NCBI RefSeq assembly: GCF_021502585.1
Contig: NZ_JAKFGM010000002.1
Coordinates: 62,001-126,000, forward strand
Length of the DNA: 64,000 nucleotides
DNA from: Sphingomonas cremea
GTDB lineage: Bacteria; Pseudomonadota; Alphaproteobacteria; Sphingomonadales; Sphingomonadaceae
Direction of reading: 5' to 3'
Shown: piece after piece, positions 3,374 to 11,887 of the stretch
Layout: every line of letters starts with the position of its first letter
Position numbering within the stretch: position 1 is the stretch's first letter
Notes under the pieces: model-generated
What the model saw: only the letters and a program-made list of their open reading frames with translations
Databases searched by the model: none
Told to the model about the DNA's origin: nothing
Position numbers and translations under genes: made by a program

Positions 3374-5974
3374 ATGGCTCGCAGCGACACTCCTCAGCAG
3401 ACGCCGATGATGGCGCAATATCACCGCCTCAAGTCCGAGGCCGGCGATGCGCTGCTCTTTTATCGGATGGGCGACTTCTTCGAACTGTTCTTAGACGACG
3501 CCAAGGCGGCTGCCGCCTGCCTCGATATCGCGCTAACCAAGCGCGGATCGGACGGCGGTGAGGCAGTGCCGATGTGCGGCGTTCCCGTCCATGCCGCCGA
3601 AAGCTATCTCGCCCGCCTGATCCGGGCCGGCCACCGTGTGGCCATCGCCGAACAGGTGGAGAGCCCCGCCGAGGCGCGAAAGGCGCGCGGATCGAAGGCA
3701 CTGGTCGAGCGCGCGATCATCCGCCTGGTCACGCCCGGAACGCTGACCGAGGAAACGCTGCTCGATTCAGGCAGCGCCAACTGGCTCGCAGCCGTTGCCC
3801 GGGCAGGCGAGGAATGGGCGATCGCCGCCGCCGACATATCGACCGGACGGTTCGAGCTGGTCGCCTGCGGCCCCGGCGAGCTTCAGGCCGAGTTGGCGCG
3901 CCTGTCGCCCGCCGAGGTCATCGCGGCTGACAAGGTGCCGGCCATCCCCACCGTCCCGGGCAAGGGCGGATTCGATAGCCATGCCGGCGAGCGGGCGCTG
4001 AAGGAGCGGTTCGGCATCGCGACGCTGGACGGGTTCGGCGCACCCGGCAGGGCGGAGCTCGCCGCGGCCGGCGGACTGCTGGCATATCTCGACGCCACGC
4101 AGAAGAATGCGGCGGCCTTTCTTGCGGCGCCGCGCCGGATCGCCCGGGCCGAGCATATGGCGATCGACCCGGCGACCCGCGACAGCCTGGAAATTTGCCG
4201 GACCCAAATCGGCACCATTGCGGGAAGCTTGCTGGCTTGTATCGACCGCTGCGTCACCGCCCCCGGCCGCCGCCTGCTCGCCGCAGATCTGTCCGCACCG
4301 CTAACCGATGTCCGCGCGATCGAGGCAAGGCTGGCGTTGGTACAATGGCTGCACGAAGAGCCGATCCGCCGGACACGAACCCGAAATGCGCTGAAGGCCA
4401 TGCCGGATATCGGTCGTGCGCTGGGTCGCCTTGTCGCCGGTCGCGGCTCGCCACGCGACCTTGCTCTACTGCGTGATGGGCTTCGGGCCAGCGCCTCGCT
4501 CAAAGCCGAATTGGAGGCCGAGCCGGATCTCCCCGACCTGCTTGTCGCCCTGCTGCCCAACCTTGCCGGCCATTCGGCGCTCACCGACTGCCTGGGTGCC
4601 GCCCTGGTCGAATCGCCACCGTTAGACGCCTCAAAGGGCGGCTACATCGCAGAGGGCTATGATGCCGCACTGGACGCGCTTCGCTCCGCGAGCAGCGACG
4701 GCCGCCGCGCCATCGCCGCACTTGAGGCGCGCTATCGCGAGGCGACCGGGGTCGCGGCCTTGAAAATCCGCCACAACGCCGTGCTGGGCTATCACATCGA
4801 GGTCAGCGCGCGGCACGCCGACCGGCTGATGGCTCCCGATTCGGGCTTTACCCATCGTCAGACGCTGGCCGGTGTCGTCCGCTTCAACTCACCCGACCTC
4901 CATGCCGAAGCAAGTCGGGTGGTGGAGGCGGGGGCGCACGCCCTGGCCGCCGAGGCAGCCCATTTCGAGGAGCTGACGGTTCTCACGGTGGCCTCCGCCT
5001 CGCGCATTGCCGCAACCGCCGATGCCATTGCCCGGATCGACGTCGCTGCCGGCAATGCGACCCGCGCAGCCGAAGGCGGCTGGTGCTTGCCGCAGTTGAC
5101 CGAGCAACCCTGTCTTGAACTGGACGCGGCGCGTCACCCCGTGGTCGAAGAAGCGCTCGCGCAAGAAGGCGAACGGTTTGTCGCCAACGATTGCACTTTG
5201 GGGCTCAATGACCGGCTGTGGCTGATCACCGGGCCGAACATGGGCGGCAAGTCGACATTTCTCCGCCAGGTGGCGATTGCCGCACTGCTCGCCCAGGCCG
5301 GCAGCTATGTCCCGGCAGCGCGGGCCAAGATCGGCATCGTCGATCGGTTGTTCAGTCGGGTCGGTGCGGCCGACGATCTTGCCCGCGGCAGATCGACCTT
5401 CATGGTCGAAATGGTCGAGACTGCTGCGATCCTTGCACAAGGCACTAGCAATAGCCTGGTCATTCTGGATGAGATCGGTCGCGGAACTTCCACCTATGAT
5501 GGCCTTGCCATCGCCTGGGCGGTGGTCGAGGCGATGCATGACCAGGTCAAATCGCGAACATTGTTCGCGACGCACTATCATGAGCTGACCCGCCTCGCCG
5601 ACCGGCTCGAAGCCCTGTCGCTGCACCATGTCCGTGCGCGCGAATGGAAAGGCGATCTTGTCCTTCTTCACGAGGTTGGCGACGGTCCGGCCGACCGCAG
5701 CTATGGCATCGCGGTTGCCAAGCTGGCCGGCCTGCCGCCGCTAGTCCTTGCCCGGGCCAAGTCGGTTCTCGCCAAGCTGGAGGCTGGCCGCGATGCGACC
5801 GGCGGGATCGCGGCAGGTCTCGATGACCTGCCACTGTTTGCCAGCCAGCAGGTCGAGGCGCCCATCATCGATCCGCTGGTCGAGGCGCTGACGGCGCTTG
5901 AACCCGACGCGCTTACGCCGCGCGAAGCGCTTGAGGCGCTCTACGCGCTGAAGCGGCTCGCTGCCGACGGCTGA
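3374..5974 (+). CDS. mutS: DNA mismatch repair ATPase MutS
   Basis: MutS (866 residues) recognises base mismatches and small loops and recruits MutL. The N-terminal mismatch-binding domain opens with TPMMAQYHRLK and contains YRMGDFFELF, whose Phe-x-Glu motif (the second F and the E of DFFEL) inserts at the mismatch. The C-terminal ABC ATPase has Walker A GPNMGGKST near residue 620 and Walker B LVILDEIGRGTSTYDG near 697, followed by the family's ATHYHELT. The ATG at 3374 matches the usual MutS start; an in-frame TTG at 3341 would add 11 residues. No strong ribosome binding site precedes it. Its TGA shares one base with the glnD ATG (TGATG), so the two genes are translationally coupled. Confidence 0.97.
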   Translation: MARSDTPQQTPMMAQYHRLKSEAGDALLFYRMGDFFELFLDDAKAAAACLDIALTKRGSDGGEAVPMCGVPVHAAESYLARLIRAGHRVAIAEQVESPAEARKARGSKALVERAIIRLVTPGTLTEETLLDSGSANWLAAVARAGEEWAIAAADISTGRFELVACGPGELQAELARLSPAEVIAADKVPAIPTVPGKGGFDSHAGERALKERFGIATLDGFGAPGRAELAAAGGLLAYLDATQKNAAAFLAAPRRIARAEHMAIDPATRDSLEICRTQIGTIAGSLLACIDRCVTAPGRRLLAADLSAPLTDVRAIEARLALVQWLHEEPIRRTRTRNALKAMPDIGRALGRLVAGRGSPRDLALLRDGLRASASLKAELEAEPDLPDLLVALLPNLAGHSALTDCLGAALVESPPLDASKGGYIAEGYDAALDALRSASSDGRRAIAALEARYREATGVAALKIRHNAVLGYHIEVSARHADRLMAPDSGFTHRQTLAGVVRFNSPDLHAEASRVVEAGAHALAAEAAHFEELTVLTVASASRIAATADAIARIDVAAGNATRAAEGGWCLPQLTEQPCLELDAARHPVVEEALAQEGERFVANDCTLGLNDRLWLITGPNMGGKSTFLRQVAIAALLAQAGSYVPAARAKIGIVDRLFSRVGAADDLARGRSTFMVEMVETAAILAQGTSNSLVILDEIGRGTSTYDGLAIAWAVVEAMHDQVKSRTLFATHYHELTRLADRLEALSLHHVRAREWKGDLVLLHEVGDGPADRSYGIAVAKLAGLPPLVLARAKSVLAKLEAGRDATGGIAAGLDDLPLFASQQVEAPIIDPLVEALTALEPDALTPREALEALYALKRLAADG

Positions 5975-8703
5975 TGAAACAGCCACCGCGCTTTGCGTTG
6001 ATCGACGACCGGCGGGCGATCATCGATCGCCGCGCCGTTGGCGAGCAGCTGAGCGCGCTGCCCGATGCCATGCTGCGCAGCGAGGCGACCGTGGTGCTCC
6101 GCGCCGCATTAGACGCCGGACGCGCCGAAATTGCCGGCCGCCTGGCTGCCGAGCCTGGGCGCGGCCGCGTAATCGCCGCCTCCTACGCCTTCCTGGCCGA
6201 CCAGATCGTCCGCCTTGCATACGACTTGGTCGTCCAGCGACTTCATCCGCGGCCAACCAATGCCGAAATGGACCGGATTTCCATCGTGGGGCTCGGCGGC
6301 ACCGGGCGGGGCGAGATGGCGCCTTACAGCGACCTCGATCTGATGTTCCTTGTCGCAAGTCCCGGGTCCGCCTGGTGCGGCCAGGCTATCGAGGCGCTGC
6401 TGTACATATTGTGGGACCTGAAGCTGAAGGTCGGCCAGTCGGTACGAACGATCGACGAGGTGGTCGCCGCAGCGAGGGGCGACATGACCATCCGCACCGC
6501 GCTGCTTGAGGGCCGTTGGCTGTGGGGAGACGAACAACTTCACCTTGATGCGATGCGCCGTTTCCGCGCCGAGGTGGTTGCCAGCACCGCGCGCGACTAT
6601 GTCGCCGCCAAGCTTGCCGAGCGTGACGAGCGCCACCGCCGAATGGGCGACAGCCGTTACGTGGTCGAACCCAACGTCAAAGACGGCAAAGGCGGTCTCC
6701 GCGACCTCCACACGCTTTACTGGATCGGCCAATATGTGTTCGGCGTCGAAAGCCCTGCCGAGCTGGTCGACAAGGGTCTATTCAGCGCCGCCGAGTTCCG
6801 GCGCTTTGAGCGCGCCGAGCGCTTCTTCTGGTCGGTGCGCTGTCACCTGCACCTTGCGGCAGGCAGGGCGGAAGAGCGGCTGGGCTTCGACATGCAGCGC
6901 CAGATCGCTGCGGCGATGCGTTACGCCGACAGGCCGGGCAAGTCGGCGGTCGAGCGCTTCATGCAATTCTACTTCCTGAACGCGAAGACGGTTGGCGACC
7001 TCACCGGGCTGTTCCTTGCGCAACTGGACGAGCAGATGGGCGAGCGCGGGCGCCGTTTCGCGCTTCCAACATTTCGGCGGCGGCCCAAGCGGCTCGATGG
7101 TTTCACGATCGACCGGGGCCGGCTGTCGATTCCCAATGATCGCTGGTTCGCAGACGATCCGTCGCGACTGGTCGAACTGTTCGCGCTGGCTGCGCGAGAG
7201 GGCATGGAAATCCATCCCGTCGCCATGCGATCCGCGTCGCGCGATGCGCGCCTGGTCGACCAGGTCCGCGACGATCCCCGCGCCAACGCCTACTTCCTGG
7301 ATGTTCTGACCGCCCCAGAGAAGCCGGACCTCTCTCTTCGCTGGATGAATGAGGCCGGAGTGTTCGGCCGGTTCGTTCCCGACTTCGGTCGTGTCGTCGC
7401 CCAGATGCAGTTCGACATGTATCATCATTATACGGTGGACGAGCATTCGATCCGCGCGATCGGGCTGTTGTCGCGGATCGAGCGAGGCGAGCTAGCGGAG
7501 GATCATCCGCTGTCGACCGCGCTGTTCCGCCAGATTGCGTCGCGCCGCGTGCTATATGTCGCGGTGCTGTTGCACGACATCGCCAAGGGTCGCGGCGGCG
7601 ATCATAGCGAGCTCGGCGCCGACGTGGCGATGGAGCTATGCCCGCGGTTCGGGCTCGATGAGGCAGAAAGTGAGACCGTGGCCTGGCTGGTCCGAAATCA
7701 CCTGCTCCTGTCCAACACCGCCTTTCGCCGCGACCTGACGGACCCCAAGACGGTCGAGGATTTCGTCGCCAAGGTGCAAAGCCCGGAGCGGCTCCGGCTG
7801 CTCCTGATGCTTACCGTTGTCGACATTCGAGCTGTCGGCCCGAGCACCTGGACCGACTGGAAGCGGCGGTTGCTGCGATCCCTGTTCGACGCGGCCGAAG
7901 AACGATTGCGGCTGGGACACAAGCAGCGTGGCAGGACGGAGCAGGTTTCGGCACGCCAGAAAGAGCTGACCGATGCCCTGCCCTGGAAGGCATCGGCCGC
8001 ACGGGCCCATGTCCGCCGGCTGCCGGACAGTTATTGGCTGGCCGAGCCCCATGAATGGCAACTAGCCAATGCGCTCCAGGTCGCCGCCGCCGAGACGCAT
8101 TTTGGAGATCCCGAGCCTTCGGTCGTGGCACAGCCCGACCCAGTGTCGGGCACTACGCGGATCTCGGTCTTTGCTCCCGATCGCCCCGGCCTCTTTTATC
8201 GGATCGCGGCGGCGCTGAGCGGAGCGGGCGCATCAATTGTCGATGCGCGGATTCACACCACGCGTGACGGCATGGCGCTCGACAATCTGCTGGTCACCGA
8301 CGGGCGCGGCAAGGCGTATGAAGACGCGCGATTGCGCAAACGCCTGGCAGCCGCTGTCGAGAAAGCCCTGCGCTCTTCGGCTGAGCCGCCGCTCCCCAAG
8401 TCCGAGCATCTTCCGATCCGGGAACGCGCCTTCGCCGTCGCTCCGCGCGTGCTGATCTCCGACAAGGCGTCTTCTCGAACCACGATTGTCGAAGTCAACG
8501 CCCGTGACAGGCCCGGGCTCCTGGCAAGGCTTGCCAATGTCATCCATGTAGCGGGCCACCAGCTCCATTCGGCGCATATCGCGACATATGGCGAGCGAGC
8601 GGTCGACGTTTTCTATCTTACGTCAGGGACTGGGCGGAAGCTGTCAGACGATGAAGCGAACGAACTGCGGCGCGGCCTTCTGGTGGTAGCAAGCGCCGAA
8701 TAG
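5974..8703 (+). CDS. glnD: [Protein-PII] uridylyltransferase / uridylyl-removing enzyme
   Basis: GlnD (909 residues) uridylylates PII proteins when glutamine is low and removes UMP when it is high, making it the main nitrogen sensor. Domains in order: nucleotidyltransferase near residues 100-125 (GLGGTGRGEMAPYSDLDLMF, with the SDxD catalytic pair), the PII-uridylyltransferase helical domain, an HD hydrolase domain (VDEHSIRAI near 490 and LLHDIAKG near 535), and two ACT domains (from about 730, FAPDRPGLFYRIAAAL; from about 830, ARDRPGLLARLANVI) that bind glutamine. Length and order match the family. The gene begins inside the mutS stop and ends just before a bidirectional terminator shared with the convergent receptor gene. 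Confidence 0.97.
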   Translation: MKQPPRFALIDDRRAIIDRRAVGEQLSALPDAMLRSEATVVLRAALDAGRAEIAGRLAAEPGRGRVIAASYAFLADQIVRLAYDLVVQRLHPRPTNAEMDRISIVGLGGTGRGEMAPYSDLDLMFLVASPGSAWCGQAIEALLYILWDLKLKVGQSVRTIDEVVAAARGDMTIRTALLEGRWLWGDEQLHLDAMRRFRAEVVASTARDYVAAKLAERDERHRRMGDSRYVVEPNVKDGKGGLRDLHTLYWIGQYVFGVESPAELVDKGLFSAAEFRRFERAERFFWSVRCHLHLAAGRAEERLGFDMQRQIAAAMRYADRPGKSAVERFMQFYFLNAKTVGDLTGLFLAQLDEQMGERGRRFALPTFRRRPKRLDGFTIDRGRLSIPNDRWFADDPSRLVELFALAAREGMEIHPVAMRSASRDARLVDQVRDDPRANAYFLDVLTAPEKPDLSLRWMNEAGVFGRFVPDFGRVVAQMQFDMYHHYTVDEHSIRAIGLLSRIERGELAEDHPLSTALFRQIASRRVLYVAVLLHDIAKGRGGDHSELGADVAMELCPRFGLDEAESETVAWLVRNHLLLSNTAFRRDLTDPKTVEDFVAKVQSPERLRLLLMLTVVDIRAVGPSTWTDWKRRLLRSLFDAAEERLRLGHKQRGRTEQVSARQKELTDALPWKASAARAHVRRLPDSYWLAEPHEWQLANALQVAAAETHFGDPEPSVVAQPDPVSGTTRISVFAPDRPGLFYRIAAALSGAGASIVDARIHTTRDGMALDNLLVTDGRGKAYEDARLRKRLAAAVEKALRSSAEPPLPKSEHLPIRERAFAVAPRVLISDKASSRTTIVEVNARDRPGLLARLANVIHVAGHQLHSAHIATYGERAVDVFYLTSGTGRKLSDDEANELRRGLLVVASAE

Positions 8704-8716
8704 TCCCGACAAACAA

Positions 8717-8746
8717 AAAGGGCCCCGCCGGATGGCGAGGCCCTTT
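8717..8746. terminator. Bidirectional intrinsic terminator between glnD and the TonB receptor gene
   Basis: AAAGGGCCCCGCC, a GGAT loop, then GGCGAGGCCCTTT form a roughly 12-bp stem with one C/A mismatch, an A-tract on the left and a T-run on the right. The symmetry fits termination of both convergent genes. Confidence 0.85.
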
Positions 8747-8767
8747 CCAATTGCGGAACCCCAAGCC

Positions 8768-11700
8768 TTAGCCGCGCTCCGGCTCCGGCGGAGGCGGTGG
8801 CGGAGGCGGAGGCGGAGGCGGCGGCGGGCAGCTATCCGTCGCCAGGATCACCGAGCCGTCCGAGCAGGTCTGCGTCGCCGGCGGGGGCGGCGGAGGCGGC
8901 GGCGGGGGCGGCGGAAGCTCCGGAGCGGGCGGCGGCGGCGCGAACTTGCCACGCAGCGTCAGTCCAAAGGTCCGCGGTTCGCCGAGGAAGGCGCCGAACA
9001 GCTGGGTCGAACGGGGGTAGAAGCCCGCCTCTACGCCGCGCTGAGTGCCCGATCCCTGTACCGGAGCGTCGAACGCCACCTGCATGAAGTTCTTGTCAAA
9101 CAGGTTCTGCGCCCACAGCTCGACCGCCCAAACATCGTTTGCCCCGCGCAGGCCGATACGGGCGTTGAAGGTGGTGAACCCGTCCTGGGTCTTTTCGATG
9201 TCGAGATCCGAACCGGTGTTGAACTGGCTCATGTGCCGAACGTCGGCATAAACCAGGCCGCGCAGGCCGCTTCCACCGATTGGAGGAGTCCAGGTGATGG
9301 CGCTGGTCGCGGTCCATTCATTGGAGTTGGACAGGCGACGGCCCGGCAACTGGAACAAGGCGTTGGTCAGCGCCCGGCCATTCGCCCCGACCAGATTGTT
9401 CCGGTAGCGGGTGTTGGCGTAGACCAAGCCGGCATTCCAGCTGAGGTTGGCCATTGGCCGCGTGAACACCTCGATCTCGACACCGCGGCTCTTGACGCCG
9501 GCTTTCGTGCCGCCCGAGCATGCACCCGTCGAAGAATTGTTGTCCTCATCAGCACCATCAAGGTCGTCCTTGCAGGCATTGATGTTCTCGACGACGAAAT
9601 TGAGGCCGTTGAACGTGTTCAGCTGGAAGTCGCGGAACAGTTGGCGGAACACAGCCACGTTCACGTCGAGGCCGCGGCCATTATATTTCAGCCCAAGTTC
9701 GAACGCGTCGTTGATCTCCGGCTTGAATTCCAGATCTGCACCGGATGCGACAACGCCCTGGCATCCCTTCTGCGCGGCGCTGAGGCAGATGGCGCCACTG
9801 CCCGACAAAGGTGGATTGGTGAAGACCGTTGTCGGAGGCGTCGCCGGAACCGTCGTCGGCACCGCAACCGCCCGCCAAAGTGCCGAGCGGTCAAGGTTGA
9901 ACCCGCCAGCCTTATACCCGCGCGAGTAGCTGATGTAGGTCAGCAGCTCTTCCGTGGGCTTCCAGCTCAGCACTGCAGTTCCCGAAACCTTGCCTTCAGA
10001 CTTGCTGTCATCAATTTCGAAGCTGCCGCCGGGTGCACTCGGAATGACGCACGGAAGCTGCTGCAGGCTCGTGCCGGACAGCACGGTGCAGAGGACGTTG
10101 TTATCGCTAAAGTCAGCCTTAAGCTTCTTGCGCTCATGCGTGTAGCGGGCGCCGACGGTCAGGCTGATGGTGTCGGTGATGTCGAAGATATTGTGCGTGA
10201 AGAGCGCCCAGTTGTTGCTCGTCTGCCGATATGAGTCATCAAGCGACGCGCCGTTGAGCGTGCTGCCGATGAAAGCCGGTCCGCCAAGGGCGATGGCAAG
10301 GTTGGTAAAGCCACTGTTTCCGAACGGCGCGCCGCTGAAGTTGACCGGCGGAATACCGGCAGGAAGGCCTGTGTTGTTGAGCCTTGCGAACGCTCCGAGC
10401 GCCGTAATCTGGCTCGCGAGATTGGCTGCCAGCGTAAACTGGTTCGCCGCAACGGCTGCGTTATATTGCGCAACTAGCCCAGCCACGGGGGTGTCGCGGA
10501 CACCCTGAGCGACTAGCGGATTGAAGCATGTCGGCGAAACGCCAGGAGCAAGGAGCCCTGCAACTCCGAAGCTCGCCCCGGCAAGGCAGTTCGCATAGCG
10601 CGAATAATCCTGGCCATATTGGAGGTTGTCATCGACGGCGAGCTTTTCATTGGCGTAGTAGCCGCCGACCAGCCAGTCGAGCTTGCCCCCGAACGCTTCG
10701 CCCTGCAGGCGGAGTTCCTGGGTGAACGTCTTGAAACGGTTGAAAGCGCCGCCGTCGTCATCCCGGAACAGGATGTCGAGATTATTGAAGTCGGCGTCCT
10801 GGCCGCGGATATATTTGTTGTAGCGATAGGCGCTGATCGAGGTCAGCTCGGCCCAGCCCATGTCGTAGACTAGCTCGCCCGAGAGGCCATAATCCTTGAC
10901 GTCCGACCGGTAGTTGCGGCCGGGAGTGATCGACACGTCGCGGTCAAACGGATCATCGTTGATGATCGCCCCCAGGGCGCGCTCAATCGTCGCGATGGTC
11001 GACGGCTGATCCCCCGCCGCCGTAAAATCATGCGCGGGGAGGAAGGGCGCAGCGCAGCATTCCTCGTTGCGCTTGGAGTAATCGGCAACCAGCCGGAACG
11101 ACAGGTCGCTCGACGGTTCGAACAAAAGTTGGCCGCGAAGTAGCCAGCGGTCGCGGTTGTTGACGTCACGGCCGGAGATATCGTCCTCAAGGAAGCCGTC
11201 GCGCTTCATCCACACGCCGTCGATGCGCGCCGCGACCGTGTCGCTGAGCCCGCCCGTGGCGTAAGCCTCAGCGCGCCGCAGGTCATAATTGCCAACCGTC
11301 AATTCGCCGCCGACCTCGGTCCTGAACTTCGGCTTGGCGGTGATGATCGAGATCAGGCCCGCCGAGGCGTTGCGCCCGAACAACGTGCCCTGCGGTCCGC
11401 GCAGAACTTCAATCCTATCGAGCGCGCCGAGCTCGGTCAGGCCGACGCTCGTACGCGAGCGATAGACGCCATCGATGAATACCGCGACCGAGCTTTCCAG
11501 GCCGGGGTTGTCGCCCACCGTACCGATGCCGCGAATACGAGCAACGCCGGCGCCGGCTTCCGATGAAGTCGAAGAGACCAGCAGCGACGGGCTGACCTGG
11601 GTCAGCTGGCGAATGTCGCTGGCGCCTGAATTCTGAAGGGTTTCGGCAGTAACTGCGGATACGGCGAGGGGAACATCCGACAGCGCCTCGTTGCGGCGCG

Positions 11701-11887
11701 TGGCGGTGACCACGATTTCGCTGGTGTCGCCCTGGGCCCGGGTGTCGGCCGTTTGCTGGTCAACCGCGGCGGCATCGACCGCTCCGGTGTCCTGCTGGGC
11801 GGTGTCGGGCGCTTGGTCTTGCGCATAGGCCGGCATCGAAATCGCCGCCAGGCCAGCCGAGAGCAGCCACATCGACTTGCGCATCAT
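8768..11887 (-). CDS. TonB-dependent outer membrane receptor with proline-rich C-terminal tail
   Basis: This 1039-residue outer-membrane receptor should import a ligand using TonB energy; the substrate cannot be read from sequence. An N-terminal signal peptide (MMRKSMWLLSAGLAAISMPAYA) is followed by a linker, a TonB-box-like EIVVTATRR, a plug domain to about residue 180 (IEVLRGPQGTLFGRNASAG) and a long beta-barrel. The barrel's last strand (FGLTLRGKF) would normally end the protein, but about 70 residues follow: two polyproline runs flanking a segment with two cysteines (TCSDGSVILATDSC), ending PEPERG. GGGGAGG precedes the start. No TonB, ExbB or enzyme genes adjoin it. In sphingomonads such receptors often take up plant or aromatic compounds, but nothing here identifies a ligand. 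Confidence 0.92.
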   Translation of the reverse strand: MMRKSMWLLSAGLAAISMPAYAQDQAPDTAQQDTGAVDAAAVDQQTADTRAQGDTSEIVVTATRRNEALSDVPLAVSAVTAETLQNSGASDIRQLTQVSPSLLVSSTSSEAGAGVARIRGIGTVGDNPGLESSVAVFIDGVYRSRTSVGLTELGALDRIEVLRGPQGTLFGRNASAGLISIITAKPKFRTEVGGELTVGNYDLRRAEAYATGGLSDTVAARIDGVWMKRDGFLEDDISGRDVNNRDRWLLRGQLLFEPSSDLSFRLVADYSKRNEECCAAPFLPAHDFTAAGDQPSTIATIERALGAIINDDPFDRDVSITPGRNYRSDVKDYGLSGELVYDMGWAELTSISAYRYNKYIRGQDADFNNLDILFRDDDGGAFNRFKTFTQELRLQGEAFGGKLDWLVGGYYANEKLAVDDNLQYGQDYSRYANCLAGASFGVAGLLAPGVSPTCFNPLVAQGVRDTPVAGLVAQYNAAVAANQFTLAANLASQITALGAFARLNNTGLPAGIPPVNFSGAPFGNSGFTNLAIALGGPAFIGSTLNGASLDDSYRQTSNNWALFTHNIFDITDTISLTVGARYTHERKKLKADFSDNNVLCTVLSGTSLQQLPCVIPSAPGGSFEIDDSKSEGKVSGTAVLSWKPTEELLTYISYSRGYKAGGFNLDRSALWRAVAVPTTVPATPPTTVFTNPPLSGSGAICLSAAQKGCQGVVASGADLEFKPEINDAFELGLKYNGRGLDVNVAVFRQLFRDFQLNTFNGLNFVVENINACKDDLDGADEDNNSSTGACSGGTKAGVKSRGVEIEVFTRPMANLSWNAGLVYANTRYRNNLVGANGRALTNALFQLPGRRLSNSNEWTATSAITWTPPIGGSGLRGLVYADVRHMSQFNTGSDLDIEKTQDGFTTFNARIGLRGANDVWAVELWAQNLFDKNFMQVAFDAPVQGSGTQRGVEAGFYPRSTQLFGAFLGEPRTFGLTLRGKFAPPPPAPELPPPPPPPPPPPPATQTCSDGSVILATDSCPPPPPPPPPPPPPPEPERG

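Follow-up and report, generated by a model that had tools for sequence, protein, structure and literature searches.

The proline-rich tail at the C-terminus of a TonB-dependent receptor of Sphingomonas cremea, encoded in the window studied here (the whole stretch of 64,000 nucleotides that was analysed), is in our view probably a modular tether between the outer membrane and the peptidoglycan that works together with an L,D-transpeptidase. Contact with peptidoglycan and the role of the transpeptidase are what we infer from the design of the tail (rod, knob, rod and a charged end), its occurrence in a lipoprotein form, the peptidoglycan-binding domain of relatives and the peptidoglycan-joining enzymes encoded next to it, which together make a wall tether the simplest reading. 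One C-terminal module on receptors, autotransporters, small barrels and a lipoprotein would amount to a general tag for anchoring, transferable from protein to protein. Sphingomonads are a large bacterial group of soil, water and plants, and in the open-licence literature we found neither a description of a portable C-terminal module of this design nor a paper on the attachment of the sphingomonad outer membrane to the wall.

The receptor gene (minus strand, as are all its parts; 8768..11887) encodes 1039 amino acids, starting with a likely signal peptide of residues 1-22 (MMRKS...MPAYA; 11822..11887; A-x-A rule, by eye). A plug domain (residues 69-177; 11357..11683; Pfam E 3.4e-16) and a barrel domain (Pfam match over residues 353-929; 9101..10831; E 3.5e-34) both score above the Pfam cut-off, which identifies the protein as a TonB-dependent receptor, and they are the sole matches up to E 1; the tail itself matched no Pfam-A family. 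The last beta strand, TFGLTLRGKF (residues 973-982; 8942..8971), ends in Phe982 and is followed by a tail of 57 residues (983-1039; 8771..8941), which consists of APPPPAPEL, a first run of 12 prolines (8879..8914) whose length differs between copies of the module, ATQT, the cysteine loop CSDGSVILATDSC (8828..8866), a second run of 14 prolines (8786..8827) and EPERG (8771..8785), directly before the stop codon. Among the 301 stop-to-stop frames of at least 100 amino acids in the window, only that of the receptor contains at least ten prolines in a row. An earlier, sequence-only reading of this DNA had noticed the polyproline tail after the last strand, which is real, but had made it 70 residues long and had placed it at 8768-9005, a span that covers the tail and also takes in approximately 22 residues of the barrel. 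It had also expected an aromatic barrel end for the Bam complex; this residue, F982, does close the last strand and is thus internal to the protein rather than missing. C-terminal sorting tags of the PEP-CTERM and LPXTG type consist of a hydrophobic helix and a basic cluster, and no hydrophobic stretch was seen in the proline-rich tail. Just downstream of the gene, at 8715-8747, lies an inverted repeat (GGGCC...GGCCC) flanked by runs of A and T, likely a terminator, to judge from its form, between the receptor gene and the opposite-strand ORF at 5974-8703.

When the genome was searched with the whole receptor, unrelated proteins were matched through the tail alone, and the last 36 residues of the tail gave eight matches at E < 1e-14; the next one (L028; E = 0.12) is an unrelated protein matched by chance. 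The module, P(n)-ATQTC-x-DG-x8-CP(14)-EPERG, thus forms the C-terminus of eight proteins of this genome, the window receptor and seven others: two TonB receptors, one autotransporter (a frame of 2463 aa, the retrieved piece of which matches the Autotransporter domain at E 7.7e-49) and five small OmpA-like barrels, in four of which the tail directly follows a closing strand such as SLIYNF or SLIFNF. The autotransporter and small-barrel hosts rule out a feature of receptors only. A search of the genome for the pattern PPxxERG-stop gave six hits, each of them a tail, and the reversed control gave none. Counted from the Ala of ATQTC and including the stop, the distance to the end is 37 codons in 12/12 copies (eight from this genome and four from one genus-mate), and over the 28 pairs of own copies pS is 0.481 and pN 0.027 (pN/pS 0.055). 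The module is under purifying selection: with this substitution pattern and a constant length, the protein sequence and its length were kept by selection and the DNA drifted, a combination that is not expected from recent gene conversion or repeat slippage. The sequence-only reading had named a frameshift after a normal stop in relatives, or a lack of conservation, as grounds for giving up the tail. Neither was found, since the module is conserved among the copies of the genome and in relatives, and the 8 own and 4 genus-mate copies share their end codon and differ mostly by synonymous changes; a frameshifted or chance tail is therefore ruled out by these copies together with the eight matches at E < 1e-14.

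The spread of the module, which the same reading had proposed to count in sphingomonad proteomes, was determined with a profile of the loop and its proline flanks from which the C-terminus was left out, so that the matches include loops that are not terminal. The profile matched 39 of 397 genomes of the family and 38 of 297 genomes of the order (25 of the window's genus, 0/38 outside the family). At a stricter threshold 2 of 289 genomes of the class were matched, the window's own and one with an internal match in a Cys-rich protein, and in this class-level scan of 289 genomes no spread beyond the sphingomonads was found. A protein of another family of the class (L421 in G544) carries the motif TQTCPDGSVIPVSSNCP inside an unrelated Cys-rich sequence. 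A DNA pattern that includes ERG was found in frame with proline runs in sphingomonads, as seen from the named genomes among at least 116 stretches listed, i.e., Sphingomicrobium, several Sphingomonas species, Croceibacterium, Altererythrobacter and Novosphingobium MAGs; of the non-sphingomonad matches among those listed, the readable ones are not proline-rich and the rest are out of frame.

The C-termini of 110 tails that were found without C-terminal information comprise 87 ERG, 15 ERG plus one residue, 5 VRG and 3 others, a denominator that retains three improper tails (L114, L115, and L133, the last a degenerate copy in a second frame). Across 108 tails the Cys, Gly and Cys of the loop and the following Pro are invariant. 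Several tails, in G519, G525 and at the related loci L125, L129, L146, L150, L152, L163 and L165, carry one extra residue after ERG (K, N, R, F or L); a strict C-terminal Gly is therefore not needed in those genomes. In G523 all five copies seen (L124, L148, L151, L168 and L367) have VRG in place of ERG, a concerted change. Loop and proline runs are internal in the 553-aa frame L069 of G288, where the protein continues beyond them. At L195, L210 and L256 (Sphingomonas daechungensis) and at L132 and L133 (G475) the tail lies in a short frame that is not joined to the upstream barrel; the frame may be interrupted within the first run of prolines, the sequence may contain an error, or part of a tail may have been duplicated. 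In other genera the cysteine loop occurs once or twice in the linker of proteins of approximately 250 aa (L050, L074, L075, L077, L116, L117, L119 and L121) that from our reading of their sequences appear TonB-like.

The range of hosts in relatives is equally wide. In a Pfam scan of 59 ERG-tail proteins, in which one protein may match more than one family, there were 37 matches to OMP_b-brl, 14 to the receptor barrel and 7 to that of autotransporters. One of the 59, L091, is a small lipoprotein with two loops, polyproline and a GERG end, whose LPAM_1 score is 19.5 bits against a cut-off of 20; L131 and L246 resemble it in loops, proline runs and GERG end. To regard the tail as a receptor feature, as was initially done, is thus correct for 14/59 proteins but too narrow for the 37/59 small barrels, the 7/59 autotransporters and the lipoprotein. 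The suggestion that the tail reaches peptidoglycan or TonB-system proteins also holds in one half: the evidence points to peptidoglycan, and a link with the TonB system is not favoured because the hosts are mostly other barrel types and a lipoprotein.

For the window receptor, AlphaFold gave from 5 sequences a model (mean pLDDT 32.7) that has a strand at 973-982 and is too poor for use. The model of a sister small barrel, L223 (33 sequences; mean pLDDT 88.6), closes the barrel with a strand at 213-224 and has two short strands, at 248-250 and 256-258, within the loop that separates the proline runs. Among solved structures it matches a Legionella porin, E. coli OmpA and NspA best, and OprG and OmpW score lower. 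In this confident model both cysteines flank the hairpin, in agreement with the earlier proposal that the Cys pair may form a small loop. Polyproline extends by approximately 3 angstrom per residue, and the rod with its loop would be roughly 100 angstrom long, within the range needed. In the mechanism that we propose, a stiff polyproline rod would leave the periplasmic end of the barrel, the tail being located, we infer, in the periplasm, and would bear a hairpin knob in which the cysteines probably form a disulfide; from there a second rod, controlled in length, would lead to the C-terminal Glu-Arg-Gly. Through this tether various outer-membrane proteins, and also a small lipoprotein, would be fixed to the peptidoglycan. 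The tail would thus have on these barrels the task that the OmpA C-terminal domain has on homologues elsewhere in the family, and the L,D-transpeptidase encoded beside some of the tail barrels would most likely make or maintain the link.

Genomic neighbourhood points to this enzyme. YkuD genes occur in 25/25 genomes of the genus, and their presence alone therefore says nothing. Their position was examined for 122 tail places, which were copied by hand from the genome search and the family and order profile scans and which include contig-edge fragments and the internal module L069. With 150 YkuD places listed, at least 20 of the 122 tails, in at least 16 of 25 genomes, lie within 3 kb of a YkuD gene where approximately 2 were expected, an excess to which shared ancestry allows no p-value to be attached; among the same listed places, 102 of the 122 tails, the window receptor included, have no transpeptidase within 3 kb. 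One further tail beside a transpeptidase, in G364 (L373/L266), lies outside the listed 20. In the genome of the window a tail barrel at C1:402899 is divergent from a gene with YkuD and Scaffold domains (YcbB-type; C1:404173-405495), and small YkuD genes adjoin tail barrels in G192 and G519. Unguided clustering of the neighbours of 56 named tail loci, a set that overlaps in genomes with the 122 tails so that the counts are not additive, placed the transpeptidase joint first (10 loci, on both strands) with one upstream gene family that is always on the same strand. This upstream gene lies on the strand of the tail barrel at ten named loci (L183, L193, L202, L215, L217, L222, L223, L244, L245 and L279); in L066 and L344 the upstream frame is presumably a DUF2793 protein.

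Outside the genus, a YcbB-type gene lies beside a tail in 6 of 11 genomes taken as such, which were chosen by name, handle or loop type and inspected over flanks of 1.5 to 8 kb: G061, G184, Croceibacterium soli, C. selenioxidans, the Novosphingobium MAG Chol11 (with a short tail frame) and the MAG RH-23may17-936. Within the genus the two genes diverge or converge; in G061, G184 and RH-23may17-936 they converge, and in Croceibacterium they share a strand. As a control, 30 transpeptidase loci were searched with a barrel model built from 98 ERG-tail barrels; 27 have no such barrel within 1.5 kb and the barrels at the other three are ERG-tailed. The surroundings of five fused OmpA genes contained no transpeptidase. 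Among 109 sampled genomes, a close relative of YcbB type (E up to 1e-50) is present in 6/6 known tail genomes vs 13/103 others, a comparison from which ancestry was not removed and in which tails unlike the profile would be missed. The adjacency is in part inherited synteny. It also speaks against the proposed link that most of the neighbouring transpeptidases belong to the YcbB (LdtD) type, for in E. coli this type, as described in excerpts of PMC12729407, makes cross-links and does not anchor Lpp.

A second link to the wall is provided by the OmpA C-terminal domain (OmpA-C; PF00691). Eight genomes outside the genus (G015, G104, G163, G064, G255, G126, G066 and G186) encode fusions of a barrel with OmpA-C that have the same loop in between. 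The loop, without ERG, stands between barrel and OmpA-C in L032, L036, L053, L076, L079 and L330, and in L327 both domains were confirmed by Pfam. One of these genomes, G066 (Croceibacterium soli), encodes an ERG-tailed barrel in addition to a fusion; replacement of the domain by the tail is thus not the rule everywhere. In the window's genus none of a sample of 13 OmpA-C frames of 300-460 aa has a barrel, and PF00691 is absent among the families found for the 59 tail proteins. Several genomes of the genus carry a separate small OmpA-C gene after the tail barrel, followed by sodC and uvrA (labelled by sequence motif); such a stand-alone gene lies within 3 kb of 8 of the 122 tails, in 8 of 25 genomes, where approximately 1.2 were expected. 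At L342, L343, L344 and L346 the OmpA-C gene is found at the same locus without a barrel. A tree of 60 domains, with few columns and a midpoint root, places the stand-alone domains together with the fused ones at 98/95. In the genome of the window no OmpA-C gene adjoins the tail barrel, and the tail therefore does not need one; as an obligatory socket, the neighbouring OmpA-C is ruled out by this case.

This leaves a related explanation to which we assign a minor but real probability, i.e., that the tail tethers purely by non-covalent docking. A periplasmic protein seated on peptidoglycan, such as the neighbouring OmpA-C protein or another OmpA-C protein (e.g., Pal), would hold its ERG end or its cysteine loop, so that a split OmpA would act as plug and socket and no transpeptidase would be involved. 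Such docking is in line with the OmpA-C gene that immediately follows the tail barrel in several genomes of the genus, with the grouping of its domain with fused OmpA-C domains and with the five OmpA-C matches that remain in the genome of the window. However, the neighbour is absent here and in some other genomes with tails, and docking leaves the transpeptidase neighbours unexplained. A transpeptidase could alternatively act on the N-terminal amine of the barrel, as in Brucella and Coxiella, with the tail, for example, guiding the enzyme or spacing the wall. This chemistry is known for alphaproteobacterial barrels, according to excerpts of PMC12729407 and PMC11527210, but we regard it as quite improbable here: at the assumed A-x-A site the mature N-terminus of the small tail barrels is RD in 30, QD in 2 and RE in 1 (33/33) and stands 5 residues before strand 1, too close to reach the wall. 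The lipoprotein form, moreover, would have an acylated N-terminus, and the model-found barrels beside transpeptidase genes are all tailed.

Two further explanations dispense with the wall. The C-terminal position of the tail, directly after the last strand and common to unrelated barrels, would suit a folding, sorting or quality-control signal for a periplasmic chaperone, the Bam complex or a protease. This is improbable in our judgement, since most barrels of these bacteria have no tail, a lipoprotein has one too, the barrel keeps its own aromatic end and the neighbouring genes are peptidoglycan genes. That the tail is low-complexity repeat DNA spreading without function hardly deserves credence; the proline runs are indeed GC-rich repeats and the frame is broken upstream of the loop in L195, L210 and L256, but the substitution pattern (pS 0.481 vs pN 0.027) already contradicts it, as do the constant length in 12/12 copies and the near-invariant loop columns of 108 tails.

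If the tail is a tether that works with an L,D-transpeptidase, the nature of the bond may be considered. The anchors known for L,D-transpeptidases work through an amine. Against such anchoring here speaks that Lys follows the loop in 3 true tails of the 110 rows, as an extra last residue, and not in the window tail. Without an amine at the tail end, and with short barrel N-termini, the binding would be non-covalent or the tail would be a donor. Glu followed by a basic L-residue and Gly would resemble the tetrapeptide donor that L,D-transpeptidases need, with Gly for D-Ala. A speculative and unlikely extension is that Glu-Arg|Gly mimics the stem that serves as donor in peptidoglycan (gamma-D-Glu - mDAP - D-Ala), the achiral Gly taking the place of D-Ala. 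The protein would then be the acyl donor for L,D-transpeptidases, which would cleave it in front of Gly and attach the carbonyl of Arg to an amine of mDAP. The extra residue after ERG and the YcbB type of the neighbour speak somewhat against this extension. If true, it would represent a new use of L,D-transpeptidases and a sortase-like C-terminal anchoring that is portable between protein families and opposite in polarity to that of Lpp and of the Brucella barrels.

Wall tethers are a known kind of structure, as are OmpA and Lpp, and the tail module is a variant of tethering. It is not of the OmpA, Lpp or Brucella type, because each of these fails a tested feature. With OmpA it has homologous small barrels in common, and OmpA-type proteins of relatives carry the same cysteine loop within their linker (L032, L053, L327-L331), but the tail proteins, the window protein included, have no PF00691 and end in ERG instead, and receptors, an autotransporter and a lipoprotein are hosts as well. 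TonB linkers are likewise Pro-rich rods, and the cysteine loop also occurs in the TonB-like proteins L050, L074 and L116, where, in contrast, it is internal, a folded domain follows and there is no ERG end. Lpp and OutB are anchored as acceptors via a C-terminal Lys (excerpts of PMC12729407 and PMC12274547). The tails resemble these Braun-type anchors in a rod of set length, a conserved C-terminal box, a lipoprotein form and transpeptidase neighbours; they differ in that most have no C-terminal Lys, in a proline rod instead of a coiled coil and in the many hosts, and their link to the wall is a proposed one. N-terminal acceptors are Gly-Gly or Ala-Gly in Coxiella and Ala-Asp in Brucella Omp25 (excerpts of PMC12729407 and PMC12274547), and barrels of Agrobacterium are tethered to the wall with involvement of L,D-transpeptidases (excerpts of PMC11527210). 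Brucella Omp25, Coxiella BbpA and Agrobacterium AopA1/AopB are, like the tail proteins, barrels of bacteria that have no known Lpp and do have L,D-transpeptidases. However, the mapped sites use a short N-terminal motif, an Ala or Gly start (Ala-Asp, Gly-Gly or Ala-Gly) that none of the 33 small tail barrels has, whereas the long conserved piece of the tail proteins is C-terminal.
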